DNA from: Sipunculus nudus | Taxonomy: Eukaryota > Annelida > Sipuncula > Golfingiida > Sipunculidae | Direction: 5' to 3' | DNA: 64,000 bases | Assembly: GCA_026874595.1 (NCBI GenBank) | Contig: CM049308.1 | Span: forward strand, 15,498,001-15,562,000 | In this document: positions 1,399 through 36,614 of the stretch, one piece after another | Layout: each line of letters opens with the position of its first letter | Numbering within the stretch: position 1 is the first letter of the stretch | The notes under the pieces: generated by a model | What the model was told of the DNA's origin: nothing | Database searches by the model: none | What the model saw: only the letters and a program-made list of their open reading frames with translations | Translations under genes and position numbers: made by a program

Positions 1399-1447
1399 TC
1401 AGAAACAGTTGGCGGCAAAACACTCACTATGTTGCACCATCAAGGAG
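1399..1447 (+). CDS. SNAP25/SNAP23-like: SNAP-25-like exon 4 (49 nt)
   Basis: Too short for an ORF search; found by matching the fragment [16 protein letters not shown] to the family segment that ends helix 1 around the layer-0 glutamine. The acceptor is CCTCTGCAG at 1390-1398 and the donor GTAGCG follows 1447. Its 49 nt equals the size I know for vertebrate SNAP-25 exon 4, and its last base joins either exon 5 to make a Glu codon. The sequence is more divergent than expected: animal family members usually have AGIKT and LDDQ or LDEQ where this has VGGKT and LHHQ. The identification therefore rests on size, phase, position and partial similarity. Confidence 0.75.
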
Positions 1448-4400
1448 GTAGCGTACGCATTGACTCTGCTTTGAACCCCTCCGCACCTTGACTATATGCA
1501 CCTGTAATGTACAGTAAACACTCACTAATGCGACCACCCAGGCTCTGATATCACCCAGGGTGGCCATGTTAAAGAAATGGTCATATGGAAAGTTTCATTG
1601 TATATGCAGTGTTAAATGTACATGTGTTATGTTACTAACTTTTTTTACACATAATAGACATATGAATATGAGTGAATACATGTCAGTTTCTTAATGTATA
1701 TTTTATGACATTGCATTTTTCTGTTTCTGAATAAATTTGTTGAATAATTATATATATATATATTTTCACTGTACTGTAAAGATAATCATATTTGCTTTAA
1801 CTAGAATCACCTGAACTAAAGTGTTTATGCTTTTCATAAAAATATTTTAGCTTTATACATCTTGTAGTAAACATACATGGATCTTCCTTTCAAGTACAAT
1901 AATGATAGAAATAATTTTAGAATGAACATGCATTGATAAAAATTCTAATTTTCATTTAATGTCCACCAGCATACTTAATACATTAGATGTCTTATATTCT
2001 TTATTCACTGTATTATGTTTAAATAATGTACATGTTCATATGATATATTGTGCCATTTGTTTGATATTATTGTTTTTTTATTATTAGCTTTATTATTAAC
2101 TTTCAGCCTTATTTAAAACTCGTGTCTGTGAATGCACCTCAGGTGGTCTGTTTGAACAACATTTGTCCCCTACCCAGGATTGGAGTAGCCCTTTATTTAC
2201 ATTAGCTGTCAATTAATTGGTAACATTTGTTTTAATGGTCCTGTTGGTATACCTCCCAAGTTCTCCATCAACTGTTGTTTAATGTTTTTTTCATTTAAAG
2301 ACTTAATAGTGAATTATATACTAGGCTGTGACCAGTGTAATGATCATGCATCCATCAGTATGGCAGATATGTCATGGCCCTTGTTTAAATTGCTACAAAA
2401 CAAAGTTTTAGAAAGTGAAAGAAGGGAAATTAAAAAAGATTATTCATTTTCATGTTACCTCCTTTAACAGATACCTTCAACATTATTTGTAAGCCATCTG
2501 TCACCATGGCTTTATTTTCTTTCCATGATATATAGATATAACTTTTTCACAGATTTAGCATTTACACCAGCTGCACTAACATTTTGCTGTGATCATTCCC
2601 ATACAGGGTCTCTTTCTTTTTCGCCTGAATTTAATATGATTTACTTTCACCCCATAATACCCACCTTACCTGTCCAACACCGTTATTAATCAGTGCGGCA
2701 AACCAGTGTCCATTTGGTTGATATTAAGTGCTCCAAACCATTGAACATCTCCTCTGTAAATTTGGTTGATAGTAGATATTGCAAACCATTGAAACTCATG
2801 TTCATTTGGTTAATAGTATATTCTGCAAACGATTGAACTACCCCTCTGTCAATTTGGTTGATAGTATATTCTGCAAACCATTGAACTACCCCTCTGTCAA
2901 TTTGGTTAATAGTATATTCTGCAAACCATTGAACTACCCCTCTGTCAATTAGGTCATTAGTCAGTGCTTTGAACTGCAGGTAAACTTAAAAGGGTTTTAT
3001 GTATTCATTTCAAGAGATATAATTCCAGTTAATGTGTAACCCACCTTTTTACAAATTGTTCTTGTATGGTTTATAAATTTTAAATAGTGCGCTCTTTGTT
3101 ACCCAGAACAACTGGACAATATTGAAGGAAAGATGGATCACATGAAAGAGGATATGCGTGAGACAGAGCAAAACCTGACAGCGATGGAGAAATGCTGTGG
3201 TCTCTGTGTTTGTCCATGGAATAAGTAAGCTGTGACAGCCTGCTAAGTGTGGCTACGCCTGCATCTCCAGTCCCCTCCAAATTCTTCCAGTTTTTGGTGT
3301 GATGCGTTGCATTATTCTCCACTTGAGGTCACTCTGCTCCATGCTTAGACTCTAATTGTCTAAGCATGTAACCTGGGGGTAGTGACCTCTGGTGGAGATT
3401 TCATAACAGGCATGGAACTGTATGACCTGCATTATCTCTCATTAGTTTTCCCAGATGCCTCCAATATTTCTTTTGTGGTCTCATGTTTTTTGTAGATGTT
3501 TAAGGGTTACTATTAACACAGAGTGACTTTTATGCATCCATTTGTATTTAAGGCTAGTTTAAAAAAAAAATTATTACTTTCGCTACAATGGCTTATCAGG
3601 AATCATGCTTTCATTTAAACATGATTCTAATGTTAAATAACCTTAGAAAAAAATAATTCCTTAACACTCATCCAAAATGCAAATGCATGGTGTGATATGT
3701 AGTATACCAGAATCATGAGATTTAAGTCATTTTTAATGGAGATAATGCTACACTGCTCCGTTCCTGTTATGGTAAATTAATGCTTTTTGCGCCCTCTGCA
3801 ATTGCCAGATACCTTGCATATACTAATCCCACCTCGACAGCCCATAGACCATTTTTTGTATATACTAACTTGGCCTGATTTGAGTTTCATTTTCAGGTCA
3901 GTGAAAATCAGATTGGTGAAGGGAGAGCAGCAATCAAAAGTCTAATCATCGCTTTTTTAATTAACAGCATGAAGCAAGATGAACTAAACTGCTTTGAATC
4001 AAGATATTAAAAACAGGTTTTCAATTATCAGCTTTTGTTTAGTGATAATTGGATACTTGTAGTCATAACAATGACTGTGAGTGGTTTACTAACTTTGGTC
4101 AGATAGAGATTTGACTCAGAGCTGTGATTCTATGCTTTTCCACTTGGTGGTGCTAGTGTTTGAACTAAACCAAACAGGTGAAAGTCACTTTGAAAAAGCA
4201 TCAGATGAACTGAGCGTGTACGTAGGCTGTGTGTTTTTGCCTTGACAAATTTTGAACCCCAGATGGTGTTGTTATCGTTAAACAGAGCAGCTGGACAGGA
4301 TCGAGGAGGGGATGGACCAGATTAATCAGGATATGCGAGATGCGGAGAAGAACCTGGAAGGTCTCGAAAAATGCTGCGGGTTGTGTGTACTGCCGTGGAA

Positions 4401-6177
4401 GAAGTAAGATACCTCGGTGACACTGAGATCAGCACCCGAGAACTGTAGACTGGCTCTGTTTTCTTATTGGCACTCTTTTCATGTTGTCTTCATCTTGATG
4501 TTCTTGGTTTTCCCTTTAATCTATCTCTTGAGGCGAGATGTTATACTTCTGTATAATTGTAATCTATACTTATTCTGTTTCTCCTTGCATTTATTTATGT
4601 TTGCATGCACTGTGTTGTTACATATATATTGCTACAAGCCATACACACTGACTGATATTCCCAGTCTTTTTCTTGAAACTTGTTTTACTTGACTTGTCAT
4701 AGATTATGGTAGAAGGTCCAAGTCCAGCAGCCCAGTAGTCAAGTGATTATGTTGCCAAAAGGACCAATTAGCTATCAGACCAGTGTTTGCTGGACCACCA
4801 AGCAGAATTCTTATATTGTCTTTTTATCGTCAAACTACTGTTGTTTATAGGGTAAACTTGGCCCCCACATGATCTAAATCCTTCAGACAATGGTCCACTT
4901 CAGAAAGTGCAGAGTGCTACATAATACTATTCTTTCTGGTGTTATTATCAGATGCAGATTAATTGTATAACACCATAAAGGAAATCTTGCATATCTTCTA
5001 CTCTTTTCTCGTAAGGAGTTTTAAAATACAGAATTTACTGCCATAAGTGCATATATAAACAAGTAATTGTTTTCACACAAGGAAATGTTAAATTTAGTTA
5101 TTGTATCCGCCAAAACAAAGTTTTGCGGATACTTTGTTTTTAACCGGGTTCCGCCGCCGCCGTGTTCATTTCAGGACCACTCCTCTGTGACCACTGGACT
5201 GATTTTTCCAAAACTTGACCCCATTATCAGGTCACATGTGAACTGGTGCCTATACCATTTTGCATTGACCTCTGACCTTTCCTCTCTGCAGAGCGTCCAT
5301 CTGTGCATCTGTAATCACACATTAACCCCATATTTTTGGACTCGTTTGACCAATGGGGCTGAAATTTGGATAGCTTTATATTATGCAAAAATCTAGTGGC
5401 GCCTCCTGCAACCATTTTTGCACCGCTTCCATTAGTTCATCTGCATTGGGTTAAAATCACTCATATCTCTGCAGTGGTTGAATTTATCCACCTGAAAATT
5501 TGCATGTGTATATATCCTGGATAGCTTTCTTGAATTATAACAGGTGGCCCACCTACATTCACATTTATTCTGCAGACATCCATGCTAATATCTCAGGACT
5601 GGTTTGATGTATCCTCCTAACATTTGGCATGTGTATAGATCTTACATAGCTCTTTATCATATGCAAAACTTATGGTGCCATCTACAACCATTTTTGCACA
5701 GTGTCATTCTGTTTGTCTGCTGTGGCTTAAAATCACTCACATCTCAGCAGTGGTATGACTTATCTGGCTTAAATTTTGCATATGTTTACATCTTGAATAG
5801 CTTTCTCAATTTTGTGGCAGGTGGCACCACCTTTGTTCACATTTATGCTGCAGACATCCATGCAAATATCTCAGAACTGGTTTCACGTATCAGCCTTGTA
5901 ACCATTGTAATCAGTGTTATGTCACTGATTGAATTTGTGGGCAGAAAATCATTTTTCACTTCTGAATTTAATGTAACTATGTAAATTATAGAAGCTTCTC
6001 TATATCATATGTCACTAGTGTCTATTCCTTTTAAACTAGATCAGCAGTTTAAAGCATCATAAAGGTACAACAATACTGTCCATTTGGTCCTCTGTATAAT
6101 TAGAGTCATGAGAAATGTCAGGAAATTTCCATTTCTCAGTAAATATTGAAATTTCAATCTCAGAAAATTTTATTTTA

Positions 6178-6210
<33 letters not shown>

Positions 6211-9200
6211 ACACACACACACTCTTGTATATATTAAACTTGAAAGTAGCAGAACCAGTTTCAGGAAATTTCTTTTTGATCCACTTTTTTCATCCCTGTT
6301 ATCAGCCTTTCCCCTCACTTGAGCAACATGACCCATGGGTCACTGTTGTACAAGGGAAGGGGGAGGATTGTTAGTGATTTTATCTTGCAGCAAGCTCAAC
6401 CAAAATGATGATAACTTAGAAAAGAAAAACATAAGCTGCTGATTTAGCGCAGAAGCACCAACATTTTATGTGCACATAAGTCATAAAACTTGGCGTATTG
6501 AAATTGTGCAGGATGAAGTTCATCAGATGCATGATATTTTAAAATAAAAAATTATGTCAGTGACAAGGTCAGTGCAGCAAATCTTCATGACAGAGGAAGT
6601 CATGGACAAGAGTTTCTATGATGGCTTGGGAGGCCTTGGTTAATGACAGTTAAACACTGGCTTCTTATATTCCTTGGTGGTCTGCTTGATTTCTCTGTTG
6701 GGTCCCATATTCTGTACACAAATTTACCAAGGAGAGTCACCAAGCAAGACCCAGCCATCATCAGCGTGTCTGACTGCTTCTACAGCCTGTCTGCGGCTGT
6801 TCAAGCACCATACTTAGGACGGACAACTGAGAATTAAACCATTTGCTTAATGACAAATTGTCCTGCCAGACAAGAGAGCTTAACCATTGATTTGGAAGTT
6901 TCCACTTATCTAATGTAACAGTAACATATTTCCCACATTAAATGAAGGTCCTTGCCATTTTAATGGTAAGTGTCCTGATTATTTGGCTAAGTGTTCTACA
7001 TACTAAATGATACATTTTTTTTCCCAAACCTTTGGAAAACTTCATGAGTAGCCCATCCTGATCAGGGGTTGACCATGCTTGGGGGATTTTTAGTTCAACC
7101 AAATCTCGTATCTAGTTTTAAACAACAAAAGTGCACATTTCTTACATCCCAGCTTGGCAGGGACTTGGTTTCCCTGGACAAAAATTACTTGTTATGCCTG
7201 TCAGAAATAGCATCAGCTGTGTGTTTGTAGATCTCATAATGCTTATTGGAGTGTCATATCAGGGTATAAATACTGGGCATATGAGAGATGCCACACTGAT
7301 TGAGATTAGTGTTCTGGTGTGTTGCTGTCCTTTTTTTGGTGCAGAGAAAACATTGCTATTAAAGTTCTGCTTGACTTTATTGCTGCAAACACAACACTAT
7401 GACAAGTAACACTTTTTTAAAACTAGAATACGGGTAGTCGACAAGCGACTACATGTATCCGCCTAAATCAGAGTGGAACAGGTGAAGTGAGGCATGGATT
7501 GAGTGGCAAGGGGAAATAGAGTGAAGTGTTGCATATTAGCATGGATGGCTGCAGCCAAATGGTGTATGTAGGTTGCAACACCTACCACAAAATCCAGAAA
7601 GCCGTCCAAGTTGTATACATATGCAAAATTTGAGGCAGATAAGTCAAACCACTACATGTTTATGAGTGATTTTAGCCTGTGGCAGACAAACAGATGGACG
7701 CTGTGCAAAAATGGTTGAAGGTGGCGCCACCAGTTTTGCGTATGATAAAGAGCTATGTGAGAACTATACACATGCAAAACTTTGGCCCAATTGGTCAAAC
7801 GGTTCCTAAAATATGAGCTTGGATGTCTGCTGCATAAACTAGAATGCAGGTGGCGCCACCTGTCATAAAATCAAGAGAGCTGTCGGGGATGCATAAACCT
7901 GCAAAATTTTAGGCAGATATGTCAAACCACTGCCGAGATATGAGTGATTTTATCCCATGGCAGACAAACAGATGGGAGCTGTGGAAAAATGGCTGCAGGT
8001 GGCGCCACCAGTTTTGCGTATGATAAAGAGCTATGTGAGATCTATACACATGCAAAATTTTGGCCCAATCGGTCAAACGGTTCCCGAGATATGAGCTTGG
8101 ATGTCTGCAGCATAAACATGAATGTAGGTGGCGCCAACTGTCATAAAATCAGAAAAGCTATCCAGGATATATACGCATGCCGAATTTCAGGTGAATTAGT
8201 CAAATCACTGCAGAGATATGAGTGATTTTAACCCAAGGCAGACAAACAGATGGACACTGTGCAAACATGGTTGCAGGTGGCGCCACCATTTTTTGTGTAT
8301 GTTATAAAGCTCTCCAAGGGCTACATTTGTGCAAAAAAAATTCCCTGATCCGTCAAACGGTTCCCGAGATATGTGGGTTTATGTGTGGTACCAGACGCAC
8401 AAATGGATGCAGAGTGCAGAGGAAAGGTCAGAGGTCAAAACAAAATCGGGGCGCAGCAGTTCACATGTGACCTGAACATAATCCCGGGTTTTGTAAAATT
8501 CCGCCCAGCGGTTATGGAGGAGTTCTGGACACCTACGCAGCGCCGCCGCATCGTTGGGCTGAAAACATAGTATCCGCAAAACTCAGTTTTGGCGGATACA
8601 GTTATAATTTAAAAATAGTCTTATTTTTAGTCACAGTACAATTTATATTTTCCTGCACAGGAAATGTGGAGATTGGCACTTTACATGTTCTTTGATAGTT
8701 AAGGGCTAAAAGCTCTCAACACGTACAGTTTACAAGGCCTATAGCCACAGAGATAGACCTCCCGCCTGCATTAATAATTTACATTTTCAGGTCTAGGCAG
8801 AGCTTGACCTGGTAATTGTTCTCCTCCCTATTTCAGTTGATTATGACCTTTAACCCCTTAACATGCGACTGATCTTAGCCTAAGAGAAAGAGACATTGAA
8901 TCATATTGATATTTTATGCATTGACTATTGATCTCTTAAGTACAATTCCAATAAGGGGCAGTCAAGCAGTTAATCAGAATTAATATATGCATAGATACTG
9001 TCCGTGTGAAAGGAAACTTTGCGTGGCAGGGGGATTCATTTGTAAAATTACATAGTTAAATGCACCGATATAGAAACTAATTTCTGCCCATTTGTGTTTG
9101 CCCTTTTCACACCATTAACAGGAACACATGCAATGGACAAATACACAGTAATGCCCAGGCAAGCACTTTGTTTGTACTCAAGTGTTTTCTGCTAAGCTAG

Positions 9201-12200
9201 ATCCATGACAGAGATATTAATTTCCCATCATTGTGAATTTTGTTTACAGTTATGGATTTTGGTATAATTCAGCATAATTGTCAAGAAGTTATATTTCAGA
9301 GTTAAAGATGCCTGGTTCACTCACAGTATTTGCCCTTTAAAAGCAGAAATTTGATACAGCACCCTTTAAGATTTGATTTAATATCCACATTACAGCATGT
9401 CAGGTGACTTTCCTCTGTGAATAAGTATTTTATCCTACAGAGCTGAAATAAGACTTAACCTTTCTATAATGAGTGTCTGATTTTGTGTTTGTAATATTTT
9501 TATGCAGTACATCACAAAGGGAGTATGTTATTAAGAAGGTTATATTTCCACCTTCTGTTTTAGTCTTTCCATCCTTCATTGTCTCTCTGTGGTAAAAAAA
9601 AATTAATTTAATAAAATGGAGATAGGATGGTTATCCCTTAGCAGGAAGGACAACATGAACAATGAAGGTTCAATAGAATTTATATCTTATTATCACCATC
9701 TTTATTTTATTCTCACAAAGATATGTAAGTGATAACATGGACATTCACTTTGTCAGTGACCAGTGACGGAGGAACTCGGGTCCACTTTTTTAGGGACTTG
9801 GACTCAAGAGTCTAATGGACTTAGACTCAGAGTTAAGGACTTGAGAAATCAGTCTGTCTGCGGTCCAGCAGAAAAAAGCTTTGTCACATACTATAAAGAC
9901 ATAAACATGTGTGAACTACTTGTAGAACATTACAGAATTACTTCATCTGGATCTAAATGTAATTAAATTTTCAGGTAACAAGCTAAAATACACACAAAAA
10001 TTTCAAATTTCATTTTTAAATTTCTTTTAATAAGAAGTATTGTATTGGACTCTGATTCTGATGTAGGTTTCAAATGACTTGAACTTAAAGAAGGTGGACT
10101 TGGACCCGAACCTCATAGACTCTTTGACTTGGACTTAAGTGGCTTGAACTCAAGAGTTGCATTTGGACTTAAATCATGTTAACTCAACGTCATCAATGTT
10201 CTTTGGCTGTAAGCCACATTAAAGGTATATTTTAAGTTTTTGAAATTATGACAGTAAATAAAACATATTATATTTTGTTTTCTTATGCCTAATTTGATAA
10301 AGTTCAGTGAGTATACACTTAGTTTGCATAAAATCCTTTATTATCACTCACTGTCGGCCCACAATATGATGTCCAATGTGATGGGGAAAATAGTTTGGAA
10401 TTATGCTTCCATGTATAAAATGCACAAATGTTTTTTATTTCAATTTCATGGAGAAAAAGTGCGGATTATCCACGGGGGGAAACGGTATATCACTGTCAGT
10501 GACTGAGATTAAATCCTGGTACACTACTGACCACCTGTCTCTTCTTTTCACTTTCTTCATACTTTCACTTTCATGTACCTGAATGTTTAGCCTGAGCTGA
10601 GTGAGGTATTCATCTCCATGCTCAGTGTCTTACAGTCATTACTTTCAGCTGTCAATGCTACAGAGAAACACAGGTCATTACTTATGTATTTGGTGATACC
10701 AAATGACATCTTAAAATTGTGACATTTCATATGTATAACTGTTACTTTCACCTATGTCACTGCAAACTCACCTTCTTTGCATTATTTACACAAGCTTGCG
10801 CTATATGATTACACTGCTACCAATCACTCTAATGAATACTCAGTCATGCTTTGCTTGTAATTCATGCTATATAACCAAAAGCCTACCCTTATCCTGGCAA
10901 CTTTCCATTAATTTTGGCAATTCACTTTTGATTAAAATGGTTGTAAGAAAACATGATCCCTAAAATTGAATCTCTGGTCCTGCACTTTTTTAGTCTCATT
11001 GCTGCATATTTTTATCATTCCTCTGAACAGATGTTTTATTGCTTATATACTCTCTAGAAACAAGATATCGCATCAGCAGTTTGCTTTATAAAATGTCAGA
11101 CATTATGAATATCATGAAAATGTTGTATTTCAGATCAGGCAAACACAGTGGTTGCCCCCTTTAAATTGCGTCACCTGAAGGCCAGTTCTATCTAAAGTCT
11201 AAAAAGTGAAAGTAGATTGTATTAAAGGAGATGATATGACTGATGTATATGTAACAAGAGATCATTCCAGCTTCTGGAGCCCAAATAATTACATTCCTTA
11301 CCAGAACCATTCATACCAGATATATTCAAGATTTGTCTCTATTATTCTGGGTTTAACAACATATGGAAGGCCACCATGCCACAAAAATTATATGTTGATG
11401 ATTCTGGTGTAATTACAAAATTTTGTCTCCATTCTGGCCTTCACTTTCAGATATTTTATACCTGTGCTTTAAATGGTAATTTATTGCATTTTTGGTTATC
11501 AATCTTTATAATTCTTTACAAGTTTTGACAGATTATGCTTAACTGTATACTATAATGTAGCTTTGTGTTTATCAGTCTGATGTGCAACACAAGTGTATGA
11601 TAATATACTGTACAAGTGTATGATAATATACACCTGTATGATAATTTTATTTATTTTGATAAAATCATTTTCTGCAGATGCAAGTGCTAAATCAGAAGGC
11701 CTTAAATGTGTTTTATTTTTTCCCAGTTTATAGTTGTTTAATAAATGCATGTGTATATAGATTTAATATATTGTGTATAATATTATATATTTATTCCTGC
11801 ATTTGTTTCATATGAGAACTCGACACTTCAATTACATTATTATTAACAGTAAAGCTAAAATTAGTGTCAGAGATGATATAGGTTTATTTATACATATATA
11901 TATATAATATATATACACACTGTTTTATTTGTAAATTTTCTATTTATTGACCACTACATCACAGTGTCACCTGTATCTGAGGTTTAGTTACATTTGTAAT
12001 TTATCACCCTTGCCTAAGCTATAGTTTAACTTGTGTTTTTTTTCTATTGTCACTCAGGGCTAAGAACTTTGAGAGAGGTTCAGATTATAACGCCACATGG
12101 AAGGCCTCGGAAGACGGAAAGGTCAACACAGACGGCCCCAGGATAACCGTTGGTGATCAAAACACGGGGCCACAAGGAGGCTTTGTCACTAAGTACTTAC

Positions 12201-15200: not shown

Positions 15201-18200
15201 TTAACCAACAACATAACAATAAACAACAAATTAATAAATTTTTATTGGTTTTTAATAAAAAATTAAAGAAAAATAGAAAAGGAATTTGTTAGTTTATAAT
15301 AACAGGAAATTAACTTGCAGTTACTGATGATATAAGAATCTTGTATCAATGGGTAGAATGTCACATATTCCAAATAACACCATGCAGTCACCTATGGCAT
15401 TTTTCAATTCAATTTTAATGATAAAGAAGTAAATCATATTATTCATTACTAATCATTAGGGATCATATGAAGGAAATAAATGATAGACAAAGATGCAGTT
15501 GATAATATTAATCTAGATTCCTACTGTGTCTAGTGTGTACATTGATGTGAAATTAGTCCAAAATTAATTTTTTACAGTTATTTTTTAATATAAATAAAAG
15601 CCATAAAACCAGGTACTTATGATCATTATTTAATTGTGTGAATTTTGTATATTCTGGATTCTCAACATCATTGTTTGGTGAAAATTGAATAAATACCAGA
15701 CATGGTGCGAATACTTTGTAATTGTATTTAAATACAAATATGATTATGTACTCCATTATAAAATTTCTTGCATAAAGAATGGGAATTCAGGTAAAAATAT
15801 AAGTATATGAATACTCGTGCAAATACTTTCAAAATGTATTCATGAATGCATTCATGAATATATTCTTTAATATTATTTTAATAATCATATCAGTTATATT
15901 TCATTTTAAAAAATCATATGATTCTCTTATTATTTTTAATAAAAATTATATTTGGGACAATATTTGTAATTTTTTTTAATAAATAGTTAAACTCTTATAT
16001 TATATGTTCTGCTTATAAGTTATATGGCCAAGTCAAAATCTGTGTGACAATAGTACTCCAATTGTTAATAAAATAAATGAAATCAATCCTCTTCCCTGTC
16101 TCCAAAGGTACTATCAAAATCATACATAAGCTAAACAACAACAACTCATAATACAGCTTATTTTTATTACCACACAAAACCAGCATGTGCCTCATTTCTA
16201 AATAATATTTTTTTATCATATATAACAGCTGAGCGTCGTGACCCATAGGTCCCTTGTTTTTAGCATGAACCAGTGATTTAAATTATTACATCTGTCATGG
16301 GTTCAGTTCATATTGTAACTTAAGCCTGTTCTAAGCATGCAGCAAAGATAAGCATTAAGTTCTTTTTATTAAGTTACCAATTTTAAAATCACCCTTTCGG
16401 ACAGAGGTAATGTCTACTCAGAAAAAAACAGGTAAGCACTGTGAGTCAGCCAGGACTTCATGTCTCAACAGAAAAAAAACTCTAAAATCAAAATTTGTTG
16501 CATTTCAAGGAAACACTTTCTGTTTACATCTCACATGCTCATGCATACAAAATATTATTTATTCCATGAAATCCTTACTACAAACACCTGTGTTTAAGTC
16601 ATGTGCCTTAAAAAAATTCTTTTCCGTTATATTTGAATGGACTACTTTACCCTCTTTGTTAAATTGTATCCTATGGCACCATTGTGTCCAGAACACCAGT
16701 GCATTGTGGGGTTTGAATATCATTGCCCATAACCCATAACCAGAAGAGTCGCATTCTTGTGAGTCCAATTCTGCGCAGTGTGTTTTAAAAAAAGTAAGAA
16801 TTTTAAGCGTTTGTCATCTATCAGCTGAACTCCGCATGTGCCTAAAAATGTGTTTTGCTGCAGGACATGGAAATTATCCCCAATTAATGGCATAATGTTG
16901 TGTCAGGATTTGATTTATAATCATACCAGTATACCCTCATCAGTCAATTCTGGTGTATCAATCATGGCATCCCTGCATTTTAAGTGTAATCCTATCAGGG
17001 TGAAGTGTTCCAATAAAACTCTTGTATACCCAGTTTTGCCTCTGTGTAATCTATCATTAGACCTAAAAATAAGAATATCCTGAAGAAAAGGAATTACATA
17101 TGTAGTCATAATGCACTAGTGAATTCATTTCAATAATTTTTTTTCAAATTAAGATATGAAATAATAAAAGAATTATGTTAAGAAGTATTATTTATAGCAG
17201 TAACAATACCAGCCCCAATTCAAACTTGTTGAAAACAGCATGTGTATATGGATCACATTGTGTAATTATATGGCACATTAATTAAAATATTATATAATAT
17301 TTTTTATTAAACAGGTATCTCCATTTGGAGATCAGGCTTTGTTTGCCCTGTATATATATGTAGAAGTGTTGTTAATGTTTATGAAATGGGTATTTCCATT
17401 TGATATTGTATAAATGAAAATATTGAACCAGAAACACCAGTGTGATGTGCAAAAAGAGAAATTCATAAACAAGATTGCCCAATTTATAATTAAAAATCGT
17501 CAGATTGATTTTATGCATGTGTTAAATTCATCAAAATGTTTTAATGTAGACATCTCTATTTTCTATTGTCTCTCTTTAAAGAATAACAAATGATGCGAGA
17601 GAAGATGAGATGGAACAGAATCTGCAGGAGGTCAGCGGTATGATCGGTAACCTGCGCAACATGGCAATAGACATGGGTAATGAGATTGGAACACAGAACA
17701 AACAGGTGGACAGGATCAATCAAAAGGTCAGTCAGTGCAGGGTCAGGGTCATTACAAGGTTATATTAAGCTCAGTCAAATGCAAGGTCAAGGTCATGACA
17801 AGATCTTGGTACATATTGTTTGTATCTATCAAAAATAAGCTTATTTATTTAAAGCAATATATCAAAGTCATATTAAGGTCAATCAAATGCAAGGTCATGG
17901 TCATGGCAAGATCATGTTACATATTGATTGTATCTGTCAAAAATCAGCTTATATATTAAAGCAAAATATCACAGTCAGTTTGACCAGTGATCCACTGGCA
18001 TAAATAATTAAAATGTAACATAGAAAATAAGGTATTGGTCTTGTAAAATGAAAATGTTACATAGCAAAACTTGGTCATGGTCTTGAAAATGACATTTTAT
18101 TATGCAAATAACTGTCACTTTCCCTGATATGACTGTTGATTTATTTATTAACAGATTTGCCAATTATGGTTGATTAATGAAGATTTCCTAATAATGTTAT

Positions 18201-21200
18201 TAAAGAATAAAATTTTTAACTTGTGGCTTCATACAGATAATCAGATTTTAAAGTTATGGCTCAAAAACAGATTTGTCAATTCTAGTCGGAGATATAACAA
18301 TTACTAAATTGCAAACTGAAAACCATGATATGTTAACTATTGCTTCAAATCAATAATTGTAAAATTTATGCCTTTAAAAATTGTTATTAGTCAAATTAGG
18401 GCTTTCAAAATAAATATGTATATTTTGTCTAATTTTAAAGGTAATATGTTAATTATGACTTTTTTAGTAACATACTGTTTGATACCTAGTTTATTTGTTT
18501 GGCCGTTTGACTTGTTTTTGTAATCTTTGGATCTGAAGAGAGCCCATGGTGAAATGATGCATATTTGCTGTTGAGTGGAGAAAGTCACATCATTGGTTTA
18601 CATAAGTCATGATATATGAAATAAGTTATTCTTTGGTTTTATGTCATATTTGATCTAGTTCTTGTAATCTAGATTGATTACTATCTTTAAATGAATTGAG
18701 AATGTATTTATAAATGATGCACTTACATCATTCATGACAGACAACTCCTACTTTCATAATTTTTTCTGTAGCTCTCTGATCTATGATTGATTTAATACTT
18801 GGAATGCTTTTGGAGTAAATTCAGTAAAGAGGAATTTTAGAGTGACTTTAGCATCAATATGAAGTATAACGATTAATAATACACTTCCAGAGATACACCC
18901 TTTGAGGTTATACCTTTCATGCTGAATACCAGATAATTCTATATATTTAATGAAACTTTAGGCTAATTATCTTGTGTTTTTTGGTGTATGCAGAGAAAGT
19001 ACTTCAAGGATAACAGTAACTAGAAAACAATTTCATGTCCCTGTAGACTGTGCAAGATTTTGCCCAGTATATCTGCCATACTATGAACAATAGTGATGAC
19101 TGTTTAGTACGTTGATTTCAGGCAACATCCAATCAGAGCCGTATCGAGGCAGCCAATCAGAGAGCCACGAAGCTGCTGAAGGAATGAGGAGCTTAACGCT
19201 CCCCACTGTTGGAGGGATGGCACTTCCCCCATCCCACTCTTTCGTCCCTCCGTTTCTCTTTTAAAACCCTGCTTCTCAAAGGCTCCCCCTGGTGTTCTTT
19301 TCTGTCCAGTGATGTATTGTGTGGTGTTTTATTTCAATGTGACCTTACTTTATTTCTTTCAGACCTGTTTCCTCCCTTGGAGGGCTGTACATAGTCACAT
19401 AGGTGGTTTTGTTTAGACACATATGTTACCAGTATATATGTTCTATGCATCATTGCAGCTGACTGGGCATTTTTTGCAGGCTTCAGAACCTGCCATTCTA
19501 TGGTTAAGGGCAACATCCCATAATGCATTGATTTATATGACATCAGTCATAGTCGTGAAAGCAGAGGCATGTTGCTCGAACAAGCTCAAAATAAATTTCT
19601 CACACTTTGCTAGACATTATTTTGCAGTTAAAGCTACAAGGTTTACTTATTATCATATACCTCCATAAGTATCTGCTGAACTGAAAATTAGATCAATTCA
19701 TTCTCGCTTATCTTTGCGGAAGAAAAATCACTGGTTTCTACAACACTGGCTGGTTCCAGTGAGCCCATTATGAGTAGACTCGGGTACTAGCCAAGACAAG
19801 AGGAGATGACCGGAGGCAAGACAGGAAACCATTCTTATCAGACGTGAGCCCAGTCTGTGAGAGGCCATATTTTTTCGAGATCGTGTCAGTACAGAATTAT
19901 ATGGTCAGTCAGAGGGGTCAACTAAAGCTACAGACAGGGGTCCATGGGTTTGCTGTTAAAATACTAAAGATTATGAAAAAAGAAGTTTGCATTTATTATC
20001 TTGGCATACCATGTTATCATTAATAGGTAAACACAAACAAAAAGTCGGCATTTTAATCCCCAGTGTAATAATTAGTTTTATACACACAGAAATTCCTCCG
20101 CCTTGAAACAGTTTTGGATATATTTACCAAAAGTTAAAATATTTGATTAAAATAATATAAACAAGATAAAGACAAGCCCATTACTTAAATCTGCACCTTG
20201 AAAGCTCACCAGAAAAAGCAGACTTGTGCAGTCAGAATATTCACTTAAAACCATAGGAAACAAAAAAAAACTGAAAATTTATCAAATTCTGGTTTGCTCC
20301 TGCATAACTGAGCTGTCTGTCATGTAAATTTTCATAAATTAATCAGATTGCTTACCACAAGAATACTGGTATAACCTAAATTCCACATTTATACTAAGAG
20401 TCCTGTTACTCTGCCTGTCAGCAATATTAGTAACAGATTTGGTCTCCAGGTGGCATTGCCCTCAGTGTGGTGAAAGACCACTGGCTTCTTGCCATAGGGC
20501 TATAATGTTCATCATTAAAAAATTCTTAATTACATTATGAATTTTTTGTCTTTTGGGGTTTCCTCTGAATATTCTGACCCGACTTGTGCTTCCGATCATG
20601 CAAAGTAAGGAGTTTTACTGTAGGCAAGCAAGGCAAATTGTTTGAGCAACCAGCCCTGATGTTTAAATTTATATTAATTATTTTATGCAATCAATAATTT
20701 AAAACCTATCAGAGTGGAAATTTGTATATGTATTAGACACATGCATCATCGTCTGTTGAACTTTGGACCATCCCAAGTGAGATATTGCCTTTTAAACTCT
20801 TCTTTGTATATTCTTTATTTATATCTGTTGCTGTTCAATTATTTTCACATGGGTTTCAGCATTTTCAGTTGATAACATCATGGGATATAAGAGTCAATGT
20901 GTAAGTAGGTAGACATGGGTAGCTGTGATCACAAATCCTCCGGACTGTTGTGGTAGCTGTACCTGGTGTTGTTTAGTTGTTGCTGTAATCCGTGACAAAA
21001 TGTCCTGGTGCCGTTGAGCAGAAAAGATGTCCACTTTAAGAAATGTGGAGATTAGTTCCATTGGCATTTTGTCTATGGATAGTTCTTTTAATGTTTTGTC
21101 ACAAACTTAGTTGTGTACCTCTGCGGTCAGCTACAAAGCATCCTGAGCCTTCATGGGAACCCCAATAATGATATATTTTATCCATTTTGGATAAGTTGAA

Positions 21201-21662
21201 CACATTCACATCAGTATTATTCTGCAAAGTCTTTATTGAAATAAAATTACAATTATAATTTCTACAAAAGAAAAATTATTTAATTGAATAAAGTTTCTGT
21301 TACACACATATGCAGACAGTATGTCCCAAGTCTCAGTTACCCCTGATAAAATAGCCAGCATGGCATGGTCTTAGTTTCATTGACCGCATAGTCAACGTTT
21401 TAAAGAGTCTCAGTTACCCATGTGTACCTTCACTCACTTTCAGTGTTTTGATTTATTTACAGGAGTGTATTCAGTTTATACAGCATGTGTTCACTTCAGC
21501 TGAGCTGCAATTTCTGTGGTATTTTTTCTGTTTACACGGTGTATTCATTTTATGATTTTGGTTTGACCTTTTGTTCACCTTGACCCATCACAGGCCGAAT
21601 CCTTGGATAACCGAGTACAGGCAGCAAACAAGAGAGCTCACAAGATATTGCGGAACCAATAA
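1399..21662 (+). CDS. SNAP25/SNAP23-like: SNAP-25/SNAP-23 family Qbc-SNARE gene, exons 4 to 8 (5' part outside window)
   Basis: Spliced coding region: 1399-1447, then 3107-3224 or 4286-4403, then 12058-12192, 17582-17726, and finally 19122-19187 or 21594-21662. All junctions have AG acceptors and GT donors and the phases join without a break. Family proteins sit on the plasma membrane and give two of the four helices of the SNARE bundle that drives exocytosis. Seen here: the end of helix 1 with its layer-0 glutamine (exon 4) and C-terminal half (exon 5), the cysteine cluster used for palmitoylation (CCGLCV), a linker (exon 6), and helix 2 (exons 7-8) with the motif [12 protein letters not shown] and layer-0 glutamine in GTQNKQ. 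The linker KNFERG and the CVCPW form of the cysteine cluster look more like SNAP-23, while most of the rest fits SNAP-25, as expected of a pre-duplication invertebrate gene. Exons 1-3 were not found in the first 1.4 kb. Confidence 0.93.
1510..1602. mobile_element. Very short MITE-like inverted repeat
   Basis: TACAGTAAACACTCACTAAT at the left and TACAATGAAACTTTCCATAT at the right (other strand) resemble each other and the ends of the 886-1282 element. It is only about 93 bp, so it may be a deletion derivative. Confidence 0.35.
1603..2699. other. SNAP gene intron 4, no feature seen
   Basis: AT-rich intronic sequence with a short TA run near 1749-1762. No exon-like frame with splice sites was found. 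Confidence 0.5.
2700..2962 (+). repeat. Tandem repeat, about 48-bp unit, about 5 copies
   Basis: Successive units contain TTTGGTTGATAGTATATTCT followed by GCAAACCATTGAACTACCCC. The last three copies are nearly identical and the first two are diverged. It ends about 150 bp before the first alternative exon 5. Confidence 0.85.
3107..3224 (+). CDS. SNAP25/SNAP23-like: SNAP-25-like alternative exon 5, first copy (118 nt)
   Basis: The acceptor TTACCCAG ends at 3106 and the donor GTAAGC starts at 3225. It is 118 nt, the size of vertebrate SNAP-25 exon 5. It encodes the C-terminal half of SNARE helix 1 and the cysteine cluster, beginning [18 protein letters not shown] and ending [11 protein letters not shown]. 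Four cysteines are present, at positions equal to human 84, 85, 88 and 90; Trp replaces the cysteine at 92. By human numbering the core-layer residues are L57, I60, M64, M67, M71, T74, L78 and M81, so layers +4, +6 and +8 depart from the usual I/A/L. It differs from the second copy at 15 of about 40 residues. A 48-bp tandem repeat ends about 150 bp upstream. Confidence 0.9.
3225..4285. other. Intron between the two alternative exons 5
   Basis: 1061 bp. The pyrimidine-poor acceptor of the second exon lies at its end. I see no repeat array or third exon-5 copy here. It is far longer than the spacing at which donor and acceptor would interfere sterically. Confidence 0.7.
4286..4403 (+). CDS. SNAP25/SNAP23-like: SNAP-25-like alternative exon 5, second copy (118 nt)
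   Basis: The acceptor GTTAAACAG ends at 4285 and the donor GTAAGA starts at 4404. It is again exactly 118 nt with the same phases as the copy at 3107-3224, and lies 1061 bp downstream of it. It encodes [18 protein letters not shown] and ends [11 protein letters not shown], nearer to the consensus family sequence than the first copy. Layer residues are the canonical I67, A74 and L81. Only three cysteines are present (84, 85, 88) because position 90 is Leu, as in fly and nematode SNAP-25. The tract before the acceptor is poor in pyrimidines, which fits a regulated exon. Using both copies would add 236 nt and shift the frame. Confidence 0.92.
4404..5101. other. SNAP gene intron 5, left part, no feature seen
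   Basis: The open frame just after exon 5 (4417-4692) has a hydrophobic, low-complexity translation with no family resemblance and is taken as chance. Confidence 0.5.
6178..6226 (+). repeat. CT/CA microsatellite
   Basis: A run of CT dinucleotides followed by CA dinucleotides inside the spacer of the foldback element. Confidence 0.9.
7680..8300 (+). repeat. Tandem units of about 280 bp in the right arm of the foldback element
   Basis: GGTGGCGCCACC occurs at 7720-7731, 7849-7860, 7998-8009 and 8276-8287, with a decayed copy near 8128. Between them, TATGATAAAGAGCTATGTGA and GGCAGACAAACAGATGG recur in order, showing two to three tandem copies. Confidence 0.8.
8606..9753. other. SNAP gene intron 5, no feature seen
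   Basis: AT-rich, without a clear repeat or exon. Confidence 0.45.
9754..10198. mobile_element. hAT-like MITE related to 43447-43734
   Basis: It begins with CAGTGAC and ends CGTCATCAATG. The inside is made of variants of GGACTTGGACTCAAGAGTC on both strands, like the copy at 43447-43734. I saw no clear target duplication. Confidence 0.5.
10199..12057. other. SNAP gene intron 5, right part
   Basis: Mostly unremarkable AT-rich sequence. It holds a short duplication of TACAAGTGTATGATAATATA near 11610 and a TA-rich stretch near 11895-11925. No exon seen. Confidence 0.45.
12058..12192 (+). CDS. SNAP25/SNAP23-like: SNAP-25-like exon 6 (linker, 135 nt)
   Basis: The acceptor CACTCAG ends at 12057 and the donor GTACTT starts at 12193. 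The 135 nt keep the phase (2 in, 2 out). The product is the linker between the palmitoylated cysteine cluster and SNARE helix 2. It starts [14 protein letters not shown], resembling the SNAP-23 linker motif KNFE..Y..TW, and ends [19 protein letters not shown], resembling invertebrate SNAP-25. The linker spans the bundle and carries membrane-anchoring information in the family. Confidence 0.92.
12193..13629. other. SNAP gene intron 6, left part
   Basis: No exon seen. The segment around 12,650-12,920 shows weak similarity on the opposite strand to 50,735-50,900 and may be an old dispersed repeat. Confidence 0.4.
13630..16260 (+). mobile_element. Full-length Helentron-like (HINE) element, family A, copy 1
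   Basis: It starts GCTCAGCTGACTATAAGTC, a hairpin closed by CTGAGC, followed by a tandem GTCC(GT) tract. The interior has two direct repeats about 684 bp apart, each starting GTTAGATGTC. It ends CAGCTGAGC, a palindrome (here mutated to GACCCATAGGTC) and CCTTGTTT. It matches 59831-62470 along its whole length. The 5' GCTCAGCTG is inverted by CAGCTGAGC near the 3' end, an asymmetric arrangement like that described for Helitron2/Helentron elements. It has no protein-coding capacity and is therefore non-autonomous. Confidence 0.75.
13676..13722 (+). repeat. GTCC-rich microsatellite near the 5' end of the family A element
   Basis: A run of GTCCGTCC/GTCTGTCC units. Equivalent tracts occur at about 59875-59906 and 62833-62870. 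Confidence 0.85.
16400..16760 (+). repeat. Dispersed repeat, also present inverted near 53,860-54,150
   Basis: The segments ATTTCAAGGAAACAC, CTGTTTACAT and CCAGTGCATTGTG recur in the same order on the opposite strand at 54,150 down to 53,860. The family is not recognised. Its chance open frames are not taken as genes. Confidence 0.55.
16761..17581. other. SNAP gene intron 6, right part, no feature seen
   Basis: AT-rich, no exon apart from exon 7 at its end. Confidence 0.45.
17582..17726 (+). CDS. SNAP25/SNAP23-like: SNAP-25-like exon 7 (SNARE helix 2, 145 nt)
   Basis: The acceptor CTCTTTAAAG ends at 17581 and the donor GTCAGT starts at 17727. The first base completes a Lys codon from exon 6, and the exon ends on a codon boundary. 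It encodes the t-SNARE coiled coil of helix 2: [17 protein letters not shown], then [18 protein letters not shown], then [12 protein letters not shown]. The layer-0 glutamine (human Q174) is present and the neighbouring hydrophobic layers are conserved (V178, I181). This is the most conserved segment of the family and anchors the gene assignment. Confidence 0.96.
17755..17985 (+). repeat. Tandem duplication, two units of about 110 bp
   Basis: TATTAAGCTCAGTCAAATGC at about 17762 recurs as TATTAAGGTCAATCAAATGC at about 17872, each followed by AAGGTCA-rich sequence and an AAAAAT(A/C)AGCTTAT segment. It starts just after exon 7. Confidence 0.75.
17986..19121. other. SNAP gene intron 7, no feature seen
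   Basis: AT-rich, no additional exon identified. Confidence 0.45.
19122..19187 (+). CDS. SNAP25/SNAP23-like: SNAP-25-like alternative terminal exon 8, first copy
   Basis: The acceptor GTTGATTTCAG ends at 19121. The exon reads [19 protein letters not shown] then KE and stops with TGA at 19185-19187. It joins exon 7 in phase 0 and finishes SNARE helix 2, equal to human residues from 185 on. Layer residues are A185, N188, I192, A195, A199 and L202. A candidate polyadenylation signal AATAAA lies at 19590-19595, which would give a 3' UTR of about 0.4 kb. A second complete exon 8 follows 2.4 kb downstream. Confidence 0.92.
   Translation, partial: ATSNQSRIEAANQRATKLLKE
19188..19595 (+). promoter_or_regulatory. 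Candidate 3' UTR and polyadenylation signal of the first terminal exon
   Basis: Non-coding sequence after the TGA of the first exon 8, with AATAAA at 19590-19595. No transcript evidence is available. Confidence 0.4.
19596..21593. other. Region between the two alternative terminal exons, no feature seen
   Basis: AT-rich. It acts as intron for transcripts ending at the second exon 8 and as downstream flank for those ending at the first. Confidence 0.45.
21594..21662 (+). CDS. SNAP25/SNAP23-like: SNAP-25-like alternative terminal exon 8, second copy
   Basis: The acceptor CCCATCACAG ends at 21593. The exon reads [20 protein letters not shown] then NQ and stops with TAA at 21660-21662. It has the same phase as the first exon 8 and covers the same end of SNARE helix 2, one residue longer. 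Layer residues are A185, L188, V192, A195, A199 and I202, so layers +4, +5 and +8 differ from the first copy while +6 and +7 are kept. The intact frame, acceptor and helix periodicity argue for a functional alternative last exon, not a dead duplicate. An AATAAA signal follows at 21958-21963. Confidence 0.9.
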   Translation, partial: AESLDNRVQAANKRAHKILRNQ

Positions 21663-28563: not shown

Positions 28564-29343
28564 TTAACAAAATCTTGGAGGTGCCTCAGACTCTGGACCC
28601 TGCGGCCTCTGCTGGTGGTGCGATGGTCCTTTCCCCCCAAGTTGCAGAGCTTCACTGTCATGGACACCTTTTTCTCTCTCAGCTACCATCTGAGAGCGTT
28701 CCACTTCTGGGTCCGGCGTCCCTACAGCTGCATCTAGAGAGGGTCCGTTTCCTGAAAGGTCTGATTCCTCTGGATCTGATTCCGAATATAGGTTTCCTGT
28801 GACTGGAGAATCACTGTCTGCATCAGAGTGTCTATCGCTGGTTTCTTCTTGCTCAGGGTTTTGCTCCTTTGAGAACTGGATCCTGGTCCAGCGAAGCCAA
28901 AATGGCAAATGCTCTGTAGGACAAGCCTTCAAGTTATTGTGTATGAAACAGTCGCGTTTCCTAGTCTTCACACTATAGAGGGGATGCCTGCTGACGATAA
29001 TCAAGTAGGGTCCCTTGTATACTGGCTGTAGTTTTGGGCTGGTGCCCTTCTTGTTGGTTTTATCTAACTCATATACCAGCTCACCAGGTTCAAACACTCT
29101 CTCACGTGACTTAAGCTCATAGTGCCTCTTCTGATAGGCTTGTATCGTCTTCAGATTTTGCCTGACCTGTTCATGGATCTTAGTTAGCCTGTCCCTAAGG
29201 TCCTTGACCCACTGGTTTACGCTACACCCCTGTGAGTCTTTTGTTCCGCCAGGTGCTGAGTCAAGTATAAGATCCTCTAGTTGGACTACTTCTCTCCCCA
29301 GCATGACCTGATTGGCCGAGAAACCGGTTGAACTGTTCACCAT
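28564..29343 (-). pseudogene. pol: Integrase C-terminal fragment of pol (GPY/F module)
   Basis: An open frame of 259 codons. It starts with STGFSANQVMLGREV, the segment that follows the integrase core in Ty3/gypsy elements, and later has KLQPVYKGPYLIIV, the GPY/F motif of their integrase C-terminal domain. The last 90 residues are acidic and serine-rich. The frame is separated by stops and a deletion from the zinc-binding part of integrase upstream. The ATG at 29343 is probably internal to the ancestral pol, not a true start. Confidence 0.8.
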
Positions 29344-29417
29344 TGAGTGCTAAGCCATAGCTATCATTGGAAGATCACGATCCCAATGTTTAACGTTCCC
29401 AACGATCAGACAACGTA

Positions 29418-31451
29418 TCATTTGGAGGAGTGTCCTATTATGCCTTTCAAGCTGTTTGTTGGAGTTTGGATGGTATGGTGTCGTCCTGGTACGTATTTGT
29501 TTCCTGCCTCACTATCAGTGAACGGGACTAACACATCTAAATGTACTCTCTCCATTGGATAACCAGCGTGATTAGGTCTTTTCGTGGCCTTTTTGTTCTT
29601 GTGGCACAAGTCACACGTCTGGCAGTGTAACTTACAATCTTGACTCATCTGGTACCAAATGTAAGACCATTTCAGTCTTGTGAGCGATTTCTCATAAACA
29701 AGGTGTGCTTCAGCTTTACTACCGTGGCACATGCTCAAAACTTCTGCTTGCAGGGACCTAGGAACAACGAGGTATGTCCAAGGGCCGGCTGTATCTTCCA
29801 ACTTGTAGTTCAGCGCTGGATCTATAAGCAACAGCTGAGACTTGAGGAACCACAGCCACTTAGTCGCCTGGCTGTTCAGATTGAAGTCTGCCTGCGTTGG
29901 CATTTCATTGTAGTCTTCAGATGACATCAATATTATCACTGATCTGATGTCGGGGTCCTGTTCCTGTAACTCAGCAAGTTCAGTTGGAGAGTAATCCTGC
30001 ACCGGATTGGATGGTGCTGCCTCCTTCTCTTGGGAACTTTCCTCACATTGCTGGACTGTCGTGGCAAATACAATGTGCTTATCAGGCGAGGCAAACCAAT
30101 CACCTGCACCACAAACTGCTGAGTCCCAACCCGGCGGCTTGGCTGCCTGAAACTGGGAATCCGGGCTGTCTGAGATGCAGGCATCGAGCCGCCTCATCCC
30201 CAATGGCAACACGTCGTCGACATCATTGTGGAAACTCTCCCACAGGTAATGAGCCATGGTGCAGTTCCGGCAACCTCTGCAAGGAAGGTGTTCCCCATCG
30301 CAGACAGCTTGATAACAATTGCACCTGTCCAATAGATCTTGCAAATGGGAAAGCGTACCTTCGCTCTGATGTATCACGCCTGGCCATTGCATAATTACAA
30401 ACTTTGCCAGCTCTTCAATCCGTTTTGTTAACTGTTCCTTGATGTATCTTAATGGCACGAGCCAAGCTAGGCAATTATGATCTGTCCTGACAACGAACCT
30501 CCTTCCCAAAACGTAGTGACTGAAGTGCCGGCAGAATCTCATAATTGCAAGGAGCTCCTTTCGCATGGTGCAGTACCTCCTTTGTTCTGGTGTTAGGACG
30601 AAGCAGCCCAACACTTTTGTTTTCTCAACACTGAACCCCCCTGTATCAGTCAGTGCAGCTGTTCGGACTGAGTAAGTGCTGAGTGGTGGATTGCCTGCAC
30701 AGACCAGCGCGGCCGATTCAGAACAAGCCTTACCACCACCCTTGTCCCAATCCCCATTGTTCTGATCTTGTGGGACAATTGTTCCTACAATCTCTAAGGC
30801 AGTGCCAACACTGACCCCAGCTTCCAGAGTCACATGATGGTCAGAGTCGTTTATCACACTGAGAAACCCATCTTCTCTGGTGTTAGCGGTTGATCCAAGA
30901 AGTCCTTTCAGGTTTCTGCCGAGGGGTTCTACGATGAATTCAAGGCCGTCCACTGCACCTAGCACTTTAATCTTGATTCGAGAAACAATGTTAGGCGGTA
31001 TGATATGCCTTCTTCCAGTGGTCACCACATAAACTGGGCACAGCTGTCCATTGTAAGTTTGTTTAAGTACTGTATTTTCTGGCATGAATATAGTGTTGGT
31101 TGCAAAGTTCATTGAACACTCCTTGGCTGTCAGGAATTCTAAGCCCAGCTGGACTGGGTCTGTTATGTCTGCTACATACCACTGCCATTCATACTGCTTG
31201 TCCCCAAGTTTGAGTGTTCTGCCATCAACTTTGACATTTGGGATAAGACTAGCATCTTTTTCAATACTTTTCAGGTTTACTCGGTTTGTATTGACGAGTT
31301 CGCCGGCCGGTATCTGCTCAAACTGGTCTTTGCTCAAAATGGACACCTGTGCGGCTCTGTCTACTGTTGCATTTGCATTTAATCCATTTAACTCAACGGG
31401 CATCACCAGTGATTGCCCTCTACCAAAAGTCCCATTTGCTTCAATGGTCAC
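29418..31451 (-). pseudogene. pol: Pol fragment: protease, RNase H remnant and integrase zinc-binding domain, RT deleted
   Basis: 677 codons. Residues 16-40 look like a retropepsin start but with DRAA in place of the catalytic D(S/T)GA. Around residues 285-375 is the second half of the RNase H domain (MRKELLAIMRF, RTDHNCLAWL). The whole reverse transcriptase that should precede it is missing, with the junction near residues 255-285. Residues 570-616 carry the integrase HHCC zinc-binding motif. The frame then runs into a second deletion that removes the integrase core. Upstream, the frame stays open past the GTG at 31451 and overlaps the end of gag, so gag-pol fusion by frameshifting is likely in the parent element. 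Confidence 0.82.
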
Positions 31452-31537
31452 CAGGTCTTGATCTTTCTTTAATTGCCTGTAAACCCCAGGTGCAAGGCTG
31501 GGCTCGATTACATTTTCCTTTGCTTCCAGATGGCCAT

Positions 31538-33574: not shown

Positions 33575-34549
33575 TCTATAACAATAAGTGAATACAACAG
33601 GCTATTGCAATTACTCCTGCTTCCTTCCTTCACTCGCTCCCTTTATTTTTTAATGCAAGGTGAAGAAAGTAAACAAAGAGCAGGGCTTACTAGAACTGTA
33701 AATAACTGGTTTAATAAGCCAAATATGAAATTGAAATAATATAAAGTTAGTAGCTTAGTGAGCTGGGACAGGTGAAGTTTTCAGCTGTACCAACTGTTCA
33801 CGCATATATGTGACATATATAAAAGATATGCAACTGATAAGCTTAAGCATCAAGCCATATGAACAATGAGACTATATACTGTAATGACATAAGCACAGTA
33901 TAGATATAACAGACAGAGGTGACTTAGAAATAAACAAATAAATGCAGGCTCCAAGTTTAATGAAAGAGAAAACTTATGCAGAAAACTGCAAAAAGCTAAT
34001 ATACTGAAGGGCTAAGGGGATTAGTCAATAAGGCAAAATGACTTAAGCTGAGCCCTAAGTATTAGATACTTCAAAAAAAAATAGTGCCAGAATAAGTGAC
34101 CTGCACTAAAAAGGCTAAGGGGCACAATAAATATATCAGTATGTTTGAGTATGGCTCAGTGAGCAGCTCATTGACAGCCAGGGGATCTTTAATGTAGTAC
34201 AAACAACAAGGACACTGCAAGCTCCCAAAATAATGTCAATAGAAATGTGCTTAGTAATCAAGGTAGTAAGTCAATCACTTAAAGTTACAGCAACTGGCAA
34301 CTCTCAATGATAAGTGTAGTAAGTTTATAACTGAAAGTAATGAAAACTGGTAGGGAAATACCTTGATGCTTAAGTCATGAGACAATGCTGTACGATTATA
34401 TTATTACTGTTACTTGTTTTTCTGGATTAGTTGTGACAAGGTGTGGTGTAGCAAGGGCACAGTTATAAACACAGCTTAAATATAGACTATGAGCTGCACA
34501 GACTCACTAGTTAAAAGTCTGAGCAACTCGCTTAAATATAAAGCACTTA
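33575..34549 (-). other. Leader (5' untranslated) region of the LTR element, left part
   Basis: AT-rich, without frames of note, between gag and the 64-bp array. Confidence 0.5.
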
Positions 34550-35285: not shown

Positions 35286-35370
35286 ACTAGCGTCAGCCCA
35301 AACCCCTTAGCAGGTAGCGCCATCTGTTGGCTCTCCAGCCAACGATGGCCAGTCAGTCTATTCCCAGTGT
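35286..35370 (+). repeat. Split direct repeat A1
   Basis: Begins ACTAGCGTCAGCCC and ends CCCAGTGT, identical by eye to 39572-39656. It contains the likely gag start codon and a CTCF-like motif at 35316-35330. Confidence 0.9.
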
Positions 35371-36295: not shown

Positions 36296-36614
36296 GGGCC
36301 AGAATAATGCCCGTCAGTGTAAGTTATGGGGTGAGCCTAGCGCCCCCAAAAGAGAATAGATCCTGCCGGATCAGACGTGGATCCTGAATCAACATTTGAC
36401 ATTTTTGTTATAAACCAGCTGGTTATTATGTTCCATGTTGTTACAATTGATTAGATGCTCACATGGGAATCTATATATTAACATGTCATACTGTTTGTGC
36501 TTTGAACAATTATATTGAGAGGTTCCTTGACTGATATGTCAGCTGATAGCTGAGACTTGAACATATAATTGTACATGTTGATTTACTACATTTAATACGG
36601 TTTGTCATTGTAAC
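36296..36614 (+). other. Spacer between gag-like and RT frames
   Basis: About 320 bp with no long frame. The RT frame may be reached by an internal start or a processed transcript. Confidence 0.5.

Follow-up and report, generated by a model that had tools for sequence, protein, structure and literature searches.

The SNAP-25 gene of Sipunculus nudus contains two adjacent versions of exon 5, here called 5A and 5B, and these are a real exon pair in an invertebrate SNAP-25 (table 1). We put at roughly 75% the probability that exon 5 was duplicated in tandem, that one copy is chosen per transcript, and that the origin of the pair is independent of the duplication known from vertebrates. As originally predicted from a 64,000-nt stretch of DNA (hereafter, the window), the exons are both 118 nt long, are in the same phase, lie 1,061 bp apart, and have intact splice sites; coordinates and junctions agree (CCCAG/AACAAC and GAATAA/GTAAGC for 5B; AACAG/AGCAGC and GAAGAA/GTAAGA for 5A). 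At the start of both exons a codon is split after its first base, and neither exon has an internal stop. The peptides likewise bear out the prediction that the pair encodes alternative versions of the second half of SNARE helix 1 and of the cysteine cluster.

Adjacent homologous exons of equal length and phase within one gene characterize tandem duplicated mutually exclusive exons, and 5A and 5B have this arrangement. In translations of joined exons, inclusion of both copies, or of neither, shifts the frame into stops, and either/or use is thus the sole productive reading. The spliceosome most likely picks one exon-5 copy per transcript. At the DNA level the two copies can still be aligned (69% over 101 nt; E = 1.6e-9), whereas the 300-nt flanks on both sides yield only short matches at the level of chance. 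This difference speaks for an exon duplicated in tandem long ago rather than an assembly duplicate.

The window covers the middle and 3' end of the gene and lies within a 98-Mb contig of an assembly of 1.43 Gb in 153 contigs. The mapped span of the gene runs from C3:15431934, in an N-terminal coding exon that precedes the window by approximately 66 kb, to window position 21662. The interval of 1399-12192 initially proposed for transcript mapping covers 4b to exon 6, but the gene extends far beyond it on both sides. Identification as SNAP-25 is upheld: products match the family profile (Pfam PF00835; 69 and 68.5 bits relative to a cut-off of 25) and have two SNARE helices with a linker between them, residues 1-182 can be aligned with rat/human-type SNAP-25 chains of solved structure (E = 3.7e-67), and the zero-layer glutamine, Q53, is present in both exon-4 copies. 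When exons are joined in silico, all eight combinations read through from SLESTRRM to the stop as a complete SNAP-25.

A genome-wide search with human SNAP-25 gave seven scored matches with E values up to 10. Four are to this gene, including 5B (E = 7.6e-7) and 5A (E = 1.5e-10). The remaining three are weak, with one on contig C2 and two on contig C7, the latter resembling SNAP-29. Among the best candidates scored, the 5B peptide matched the genome only at the locations of 5B and 5A. A quick SNAP-25 tree, built with two rows left out, placed the gene near the chiton Liolophura (82) and Haliotis (95, starred), and a tunicate and a hairworm were also among the lophotrochozoans; we regard this affinity as weak evidence.

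Table 1. Exons and associated features of the Sipunculus nudus SNAP-25 gene. Positions refer to the window unless prefixed.
Feature	Position	Strand	Length	Description
N-terminal coding exon	C3:15431934-15432044			MPDKKATATSVPEEEVEEKPKTEAEILMMQLNNGTLE; outside window
Exon 3	L005:3301-3342			Outside window
Exon 4, first copy (4a)	C3:15487001-15487049 (L004:9001-9049)		49 nt	SKDAGIRTLVMLDEQG; outside window
Exon 4, second copy (4b)	1399..1447	+	49 nt	Acceptor TTTCCTCTGCAG; donor GTAGCG
Divergent exon 5 (5B)	3107..3224	+	118 nt	C-terminal half of SNARE helix 1 and four-cysteine cluster
Intron separating 5B and 5A	3225..4285	+	1061 nt	
Stable foldback	3316..3398	+	83 nt	In the 5B-5A intron, 91 nt after the 5B donor
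Conserved exon 5 (5A)	4286..4403	+	118 nt	C-terminal half of SNARE helix 1 and three-cysteine cluster
Exon 6	12058..12192	+	135 nt	Linker
Exon 7	17582..17726	+	145 nt	Most of SNARE helix 2
Last exon (8A)	19122..19187	+		22-residue peptide and stop; acceptor TTGATTTCAG; groups with type A, human included
Alternative last exon (8B)	21594..21662	+		23-residue peptide and stop; acceptor CCATCACAG; groups with type B

Distribution of exon-5 versions and age of the pair

Exon 5A is the usual lophotrochozoan form and has 98% identity with exon 5 of Liolophura. Two full-length protein searches returned 1,887 and 2,695 hits, and the 120 listed from each provided 127 distinct proteins for comparison. 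All 127 have the exon-5 segment, in 47 distinct versions, and none of these listed proteins has an exon like 5B (best match of 27 of 40 residues). Named sources account for 44 rows and 79 proteins, with 16 rows represented by more than one protein and 28 by a single protein. A single version of exon 5 is present in each of the 44 rows, including the 16 with several proteins. Database clusters can hide isoforms (Liolophura X1 represents five sequences), so a 5B-like exon may be present even in a relative such as Liolophura.

In a tree of exon 5 (50 rows, 40 columns), 41 mostly lophotrochozoan rows, including 5A, form a starred group (96/88) and 5B is outside of it. The neighbors of 5B in this tree are an unnamed row, a copepod, and a nematode, and 5B is the only branch flagged as long. 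Forcing 5B to group with 5A costs 12.1 log-likelihood units (p-AU = 0.261), and across the topologies compared for the origin of exon 5, the AU test rejects none with 50 rows and 40 columns.

Given the placement of 5B and the AU results, an older duplication has to be weighed, one that arose early within protostomes or lophotrochozoans, was lost in most lineages, and was kept in this one. We consider this unlikely. Silent sites of the exon-5 pair are almost saturated, with differences at 23 of 38 third positions (8 of 16 in the exon-4 pair and 11 of 21 in the last-exon pair), so its age may equal that of the other two pairs described below. Cys90 of 5B is also present in five of the 127 listed proteins, the named ones being from a tardigrade, a copepod, and a tunicate. 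But such a history requires repeated loss, against a background of one exon 5 in 44 of 44 named rows, and the position of 5B in the tree may reflect long-branch attraction; the AU test rejects no alternative. For the origin of exon 5, we suggest that distribution across relatives outweighs the tree. A duplication independent of the vertebrate one is most likely.

Constraint on 5B and its likely function

Exons 5A and 5B are identical at 25 of 40 residues when junction codons are completed. Their 38 whole codons have 37 DNA differences, of which 8, 6, and 23 are at codon positions 1, 2, and 3, respectively. The bias toward third positions (p = 3e-4 against equal thirds) indicates past selection on the divergent copy. 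The Nei-Gojobori estimate of dN is 0.26, and dS is saturated and not calculable. In neutral simulations that started from 5A and introduced 0.6 changes per site, 20% of 4,000 copies were without a stop and none of the 4,000 had both an open frame and at least 25 of 40 residues; at 0.3 changes per site, 4.4% had both. Relatives show almost no variation in 5A, so the 5B branch probably accounts for most of the 15 replacements.

The replacements leave the core of the helix largely intact. Layers +1 to +8 of helix 1, following the SNARE layer numbering, read LIMMMTLM in 5B and LIMIMALL in both 5A and human 5a. The changes are Ile67 to Met, Ala74 to Thr, and Leu81 to Met, and hydrophobic layers are kept. 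Cysteines are at positions 84, 85, 88, and 90 in 5B versus 84, 85, and 88 in 5A; human 5a and 5b also differ in cysteine positions. Exon 5B has His66, as does vertebrate 5b, and this residue is present in one of the 127 listed proteins. Positions 66 and 69 matter in vertebrate SNAP-25.

These patterns make it improbable that 5B is a dead or never-used duplicate. Lack of a 5B-like exon in every listed relative is in keeping with a dead copy, but splice sites and frame are intact despite nearly saturated silent sites, the third-position bias and neutral simulations point to constraint, and heptad layers and cysteines have been kept. Judged by its sequence, the pair is very probably functional, and proteins with either copy are predicted to be made. 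Exon 5A would specify the usual invertebrate protein. Exon 5B preserves buried positions of the helix, differs at 15 of 40 residues that lie mostly on its outer face, and adds one cysteine to a putative membrane-anchoring cluster. It would therefore be expected to modulate how SNAREs assemble and attach to the membrane, in a manner similar to vertebrate SNAP-25a/b.

Comparison with the vertebrate exon pair

The layout was originally likened to that of the vertebrate SNAP-25a/b exon pair, and this holds for exon, length, and phase. In the passages of PMC2581893 considered here, the vertebrate pair is a tandem duplication of the same exon, in the same phase, and encodes the end of helix 1 and palmitoylated cysteines. 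Nine residues differ between the vertebrate isoforms and two non-conservative differences are reported there to convert secretion behavior. The same passages describe the duplicated exon in bony fish, place its origin in early bony fish, state that it has not been described in Torpedo or Drosophila, and present the switch as an innovation for complex neuronal function (PMC2581893). In both systems, one copy adds or moves a cysteine. The systems also differ. Human 5a and 5b are identical at 31 of 40 residues, compared to 25 of 40 for 5A and 5B. In S. nudus, the conserved copy is the one downstream, and exon 4 and the last exon have pairs of their own. Exons 5A and 5B are the same kind of thing as those of SNAP-25a/b, most likely as a parallel rather than a homologue.

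That the two pairs are homologous, descending from one duplication before the bilaterian split, is highly improbable. The idea draws on the identical exon, length, phase, and layout, and on the His66 that 5B has in common with vertebrate 5b. Placing 5B together with the two human exons lowers the log-likelihood by just 0.69 units (p-AU = 0.509), although such a group would not in itself amount to homology with 5a and 5b. Conversely, human 5a and 5b are sisters in the exon-5 tree (91/93, not starred), and the duplicated exon is not reported for Torpedo or Drosophila in the passages of PMC2581893. Types do not match across the pairs: 5B is identical to human 5a at 24 of 40 residues and to 5b at 22, and 5A at 29 and 27, respectively. 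Forcing 5B with human 5b or human 5a alone costs 13.7 (p-AU = 0.22) and 13.0 (p-AU = 0.253) units, though neither is rejected. In the best tree, the two copies do not group one with 5a and the other with 5b, and the AU test rejects no alternative to that tree. Finally, an assembly or haplotype artefact, or a second copy of the gene, is extremely improbable: both exons are on one 98-Mb contig, their flanks cannot be aligned, 5B has no other copy among the candidates scored in the genome search, and the other matches to SNAP-25 are weak, with two of three resembling SNAP-29.

The original prediction offered two possibilities, a duplication older than vertebrates or one that arose twice, and proposed a tree of exon-5 peptides to separate them. 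Sister human exons, a single version in 44 of 44 named rows, and the passages of PMC2581893 favor the second possibility. Other features of the tree speak against it: 5B is outside of the mostly lophotrochozoan group that includes 5A, and uniting it with both human exons costs little. The AU test rejects nothing. According to passages of PMC9741552, duplicated exons of human and fly arose independently in many orthologous genes. The convergent tandem duplicated exon substitutions described there are the same class of event as the exon-5 pair; the term SNAP is absent from the main text of that paper. Likewise, no description of an exon-5 pair in an invertebrate SNAP-25 is in the passages considered from the open-access texts of PMC2581893, PMC4465641, PMC9741552, PMC10676425, PMC7073020, PMC5740500, PMC4342343, and PMC5851683. 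If there was a second, independent duplication, this stretch of SNAP-25 would be a favored place for tuning exocytosis, and the S. nudus pair would serve as a natural replicate in which to identify the residues that matter.

Paired exons 4 and 8 and other elements of the locus

Exon 4 is also paired. Copies 4a and 4b are equal in length (49 nt) and phase and approximately 12.4 kb apart, and the reading frame runs into stops if both are used or if neither is. The 4b peptide is unusual in having HH before QG and is nearest to the SQ-D/E-VG-KT kind of exon 4 (11 of 16 residues), where the two kinds are defined by a hand-written pattern and 16 columns are too few for a tree of exon 4. The last exon is paired as well, with 8A and 8B each having their own stop and encoding the C-terminal tip of SNARE helix 2. 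In a tree of last exons (44 rows, comprising 41 chosen proteins, the two window exons, and human; 22 columns; labels set beforehand by pattern), one branch (98/96) separates 25 of type A from 19 of type B, and 8A and 8B are on opposite sides. Besides 8B, last exons of type B are those of 15 molluscan rows, the nemertean Lineus, and three unnamed rows. Occurrence in molluscs and a nemertean implies that the last-exon pair is older than the radiation of molluscs and probably older than their split from nemerteans; by this distribution, the pair is ancient.

Among the 44 named rows, 10 have two exon-4 versions and 12 have both types of last exon, mostly as predicted isoforms. Eight of the 10 combine the SKEAG kind of exon 4 with the other kind, and in C. 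virginica and H. rufescens, both versions are of the SKEAG kind. Molluscan RefSeq predicted isoforms X1-X8 of SNAP-25 have the same two last-exon types as 8A and 8B and share one exon 5, whereas the S. nudus gene has a second. We found no discussion of paired exons 4 and 8 of molluscan SNAP-25 in searches of open-access papers. With these old pairs in molluscs, isoform choice in SNAP-25 would be a general theme outside vertebrates. The three pairs in S. nudus (exons 4, 5, and last) are predicted to allow eight possible proteins from one gene. A broader scenario, to which we give somewhat less than even odds, is that SNAP-25 of lophotrochozoans is a combinatorial SNARE gene, with alternatives for exon 4, which encodes the first half of helix 1, for the last exon, and for the N-terminus, and that this lineage re-invented the 5a/5b switch, resulting in at least eight versions of the neuronal t-SNARE. 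Separately, exon 6 of Dreissena isoform X3 (P0126) differs from that of other Dreissena isoforms and is possibly another alternative SNAP-25 exon, in a bivalve.

The intron between 5B and 5A has a stable foldback (-49.1 kcal/mol; z = -8.76 from 200 shuffles). We considered and rejected it as a splicing regulator or microRNA. There is no Rfam match in the window and a second copy is located at C7:21715845-21715936 (78%; weaker, at -34.0 in a 120-nt stretch), so the foldback is more likely a small repeat. RBFOX-type sites (TGCATG) likewise give no grounds for a role in regulating the pair; they are located 199 nt after 5A and between 5B and 5A, but the five in the surrounding 3.2 kb compare to 3.46 expected by chance.

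Other repeats are present in the window. A 48-nt tandem repeat of 5.2 copies (2707-2954) is approximately 150 nt before 5B, and the intron between exons 5 and 6 has an insertion of approximately 3.5 kb (5102-8600) with 150-nt inverted ends (73% identical) and internal repeats of 276-278 nt. Copies of a dispersed repeat (1-234, 16030-16262, and 62243-62474) are 93-96% identical. Two retroelements (28567-33601 on the minus strand and 35318-38462 on the plus strand) have reverse-transcriptase, RNase H, or integrase domains, and an open frame with leucine-rich repeats is at 51909-52283 on the minus strand. Elsewhere in the assembly, contigs C60, C61, C62, C66, C72, C74, C75, C89, and C123 have bacterial-type cytochrome oxidase genes. 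Nine of these genes are nearly alike (GC of about 0.38; contigs of 57 kb to 3.3 Mb) and one is different (GC of 0.52), and the nearest relative in GTDB is only 58% identical. These contigs are contaminants or symbionts in the assembly.
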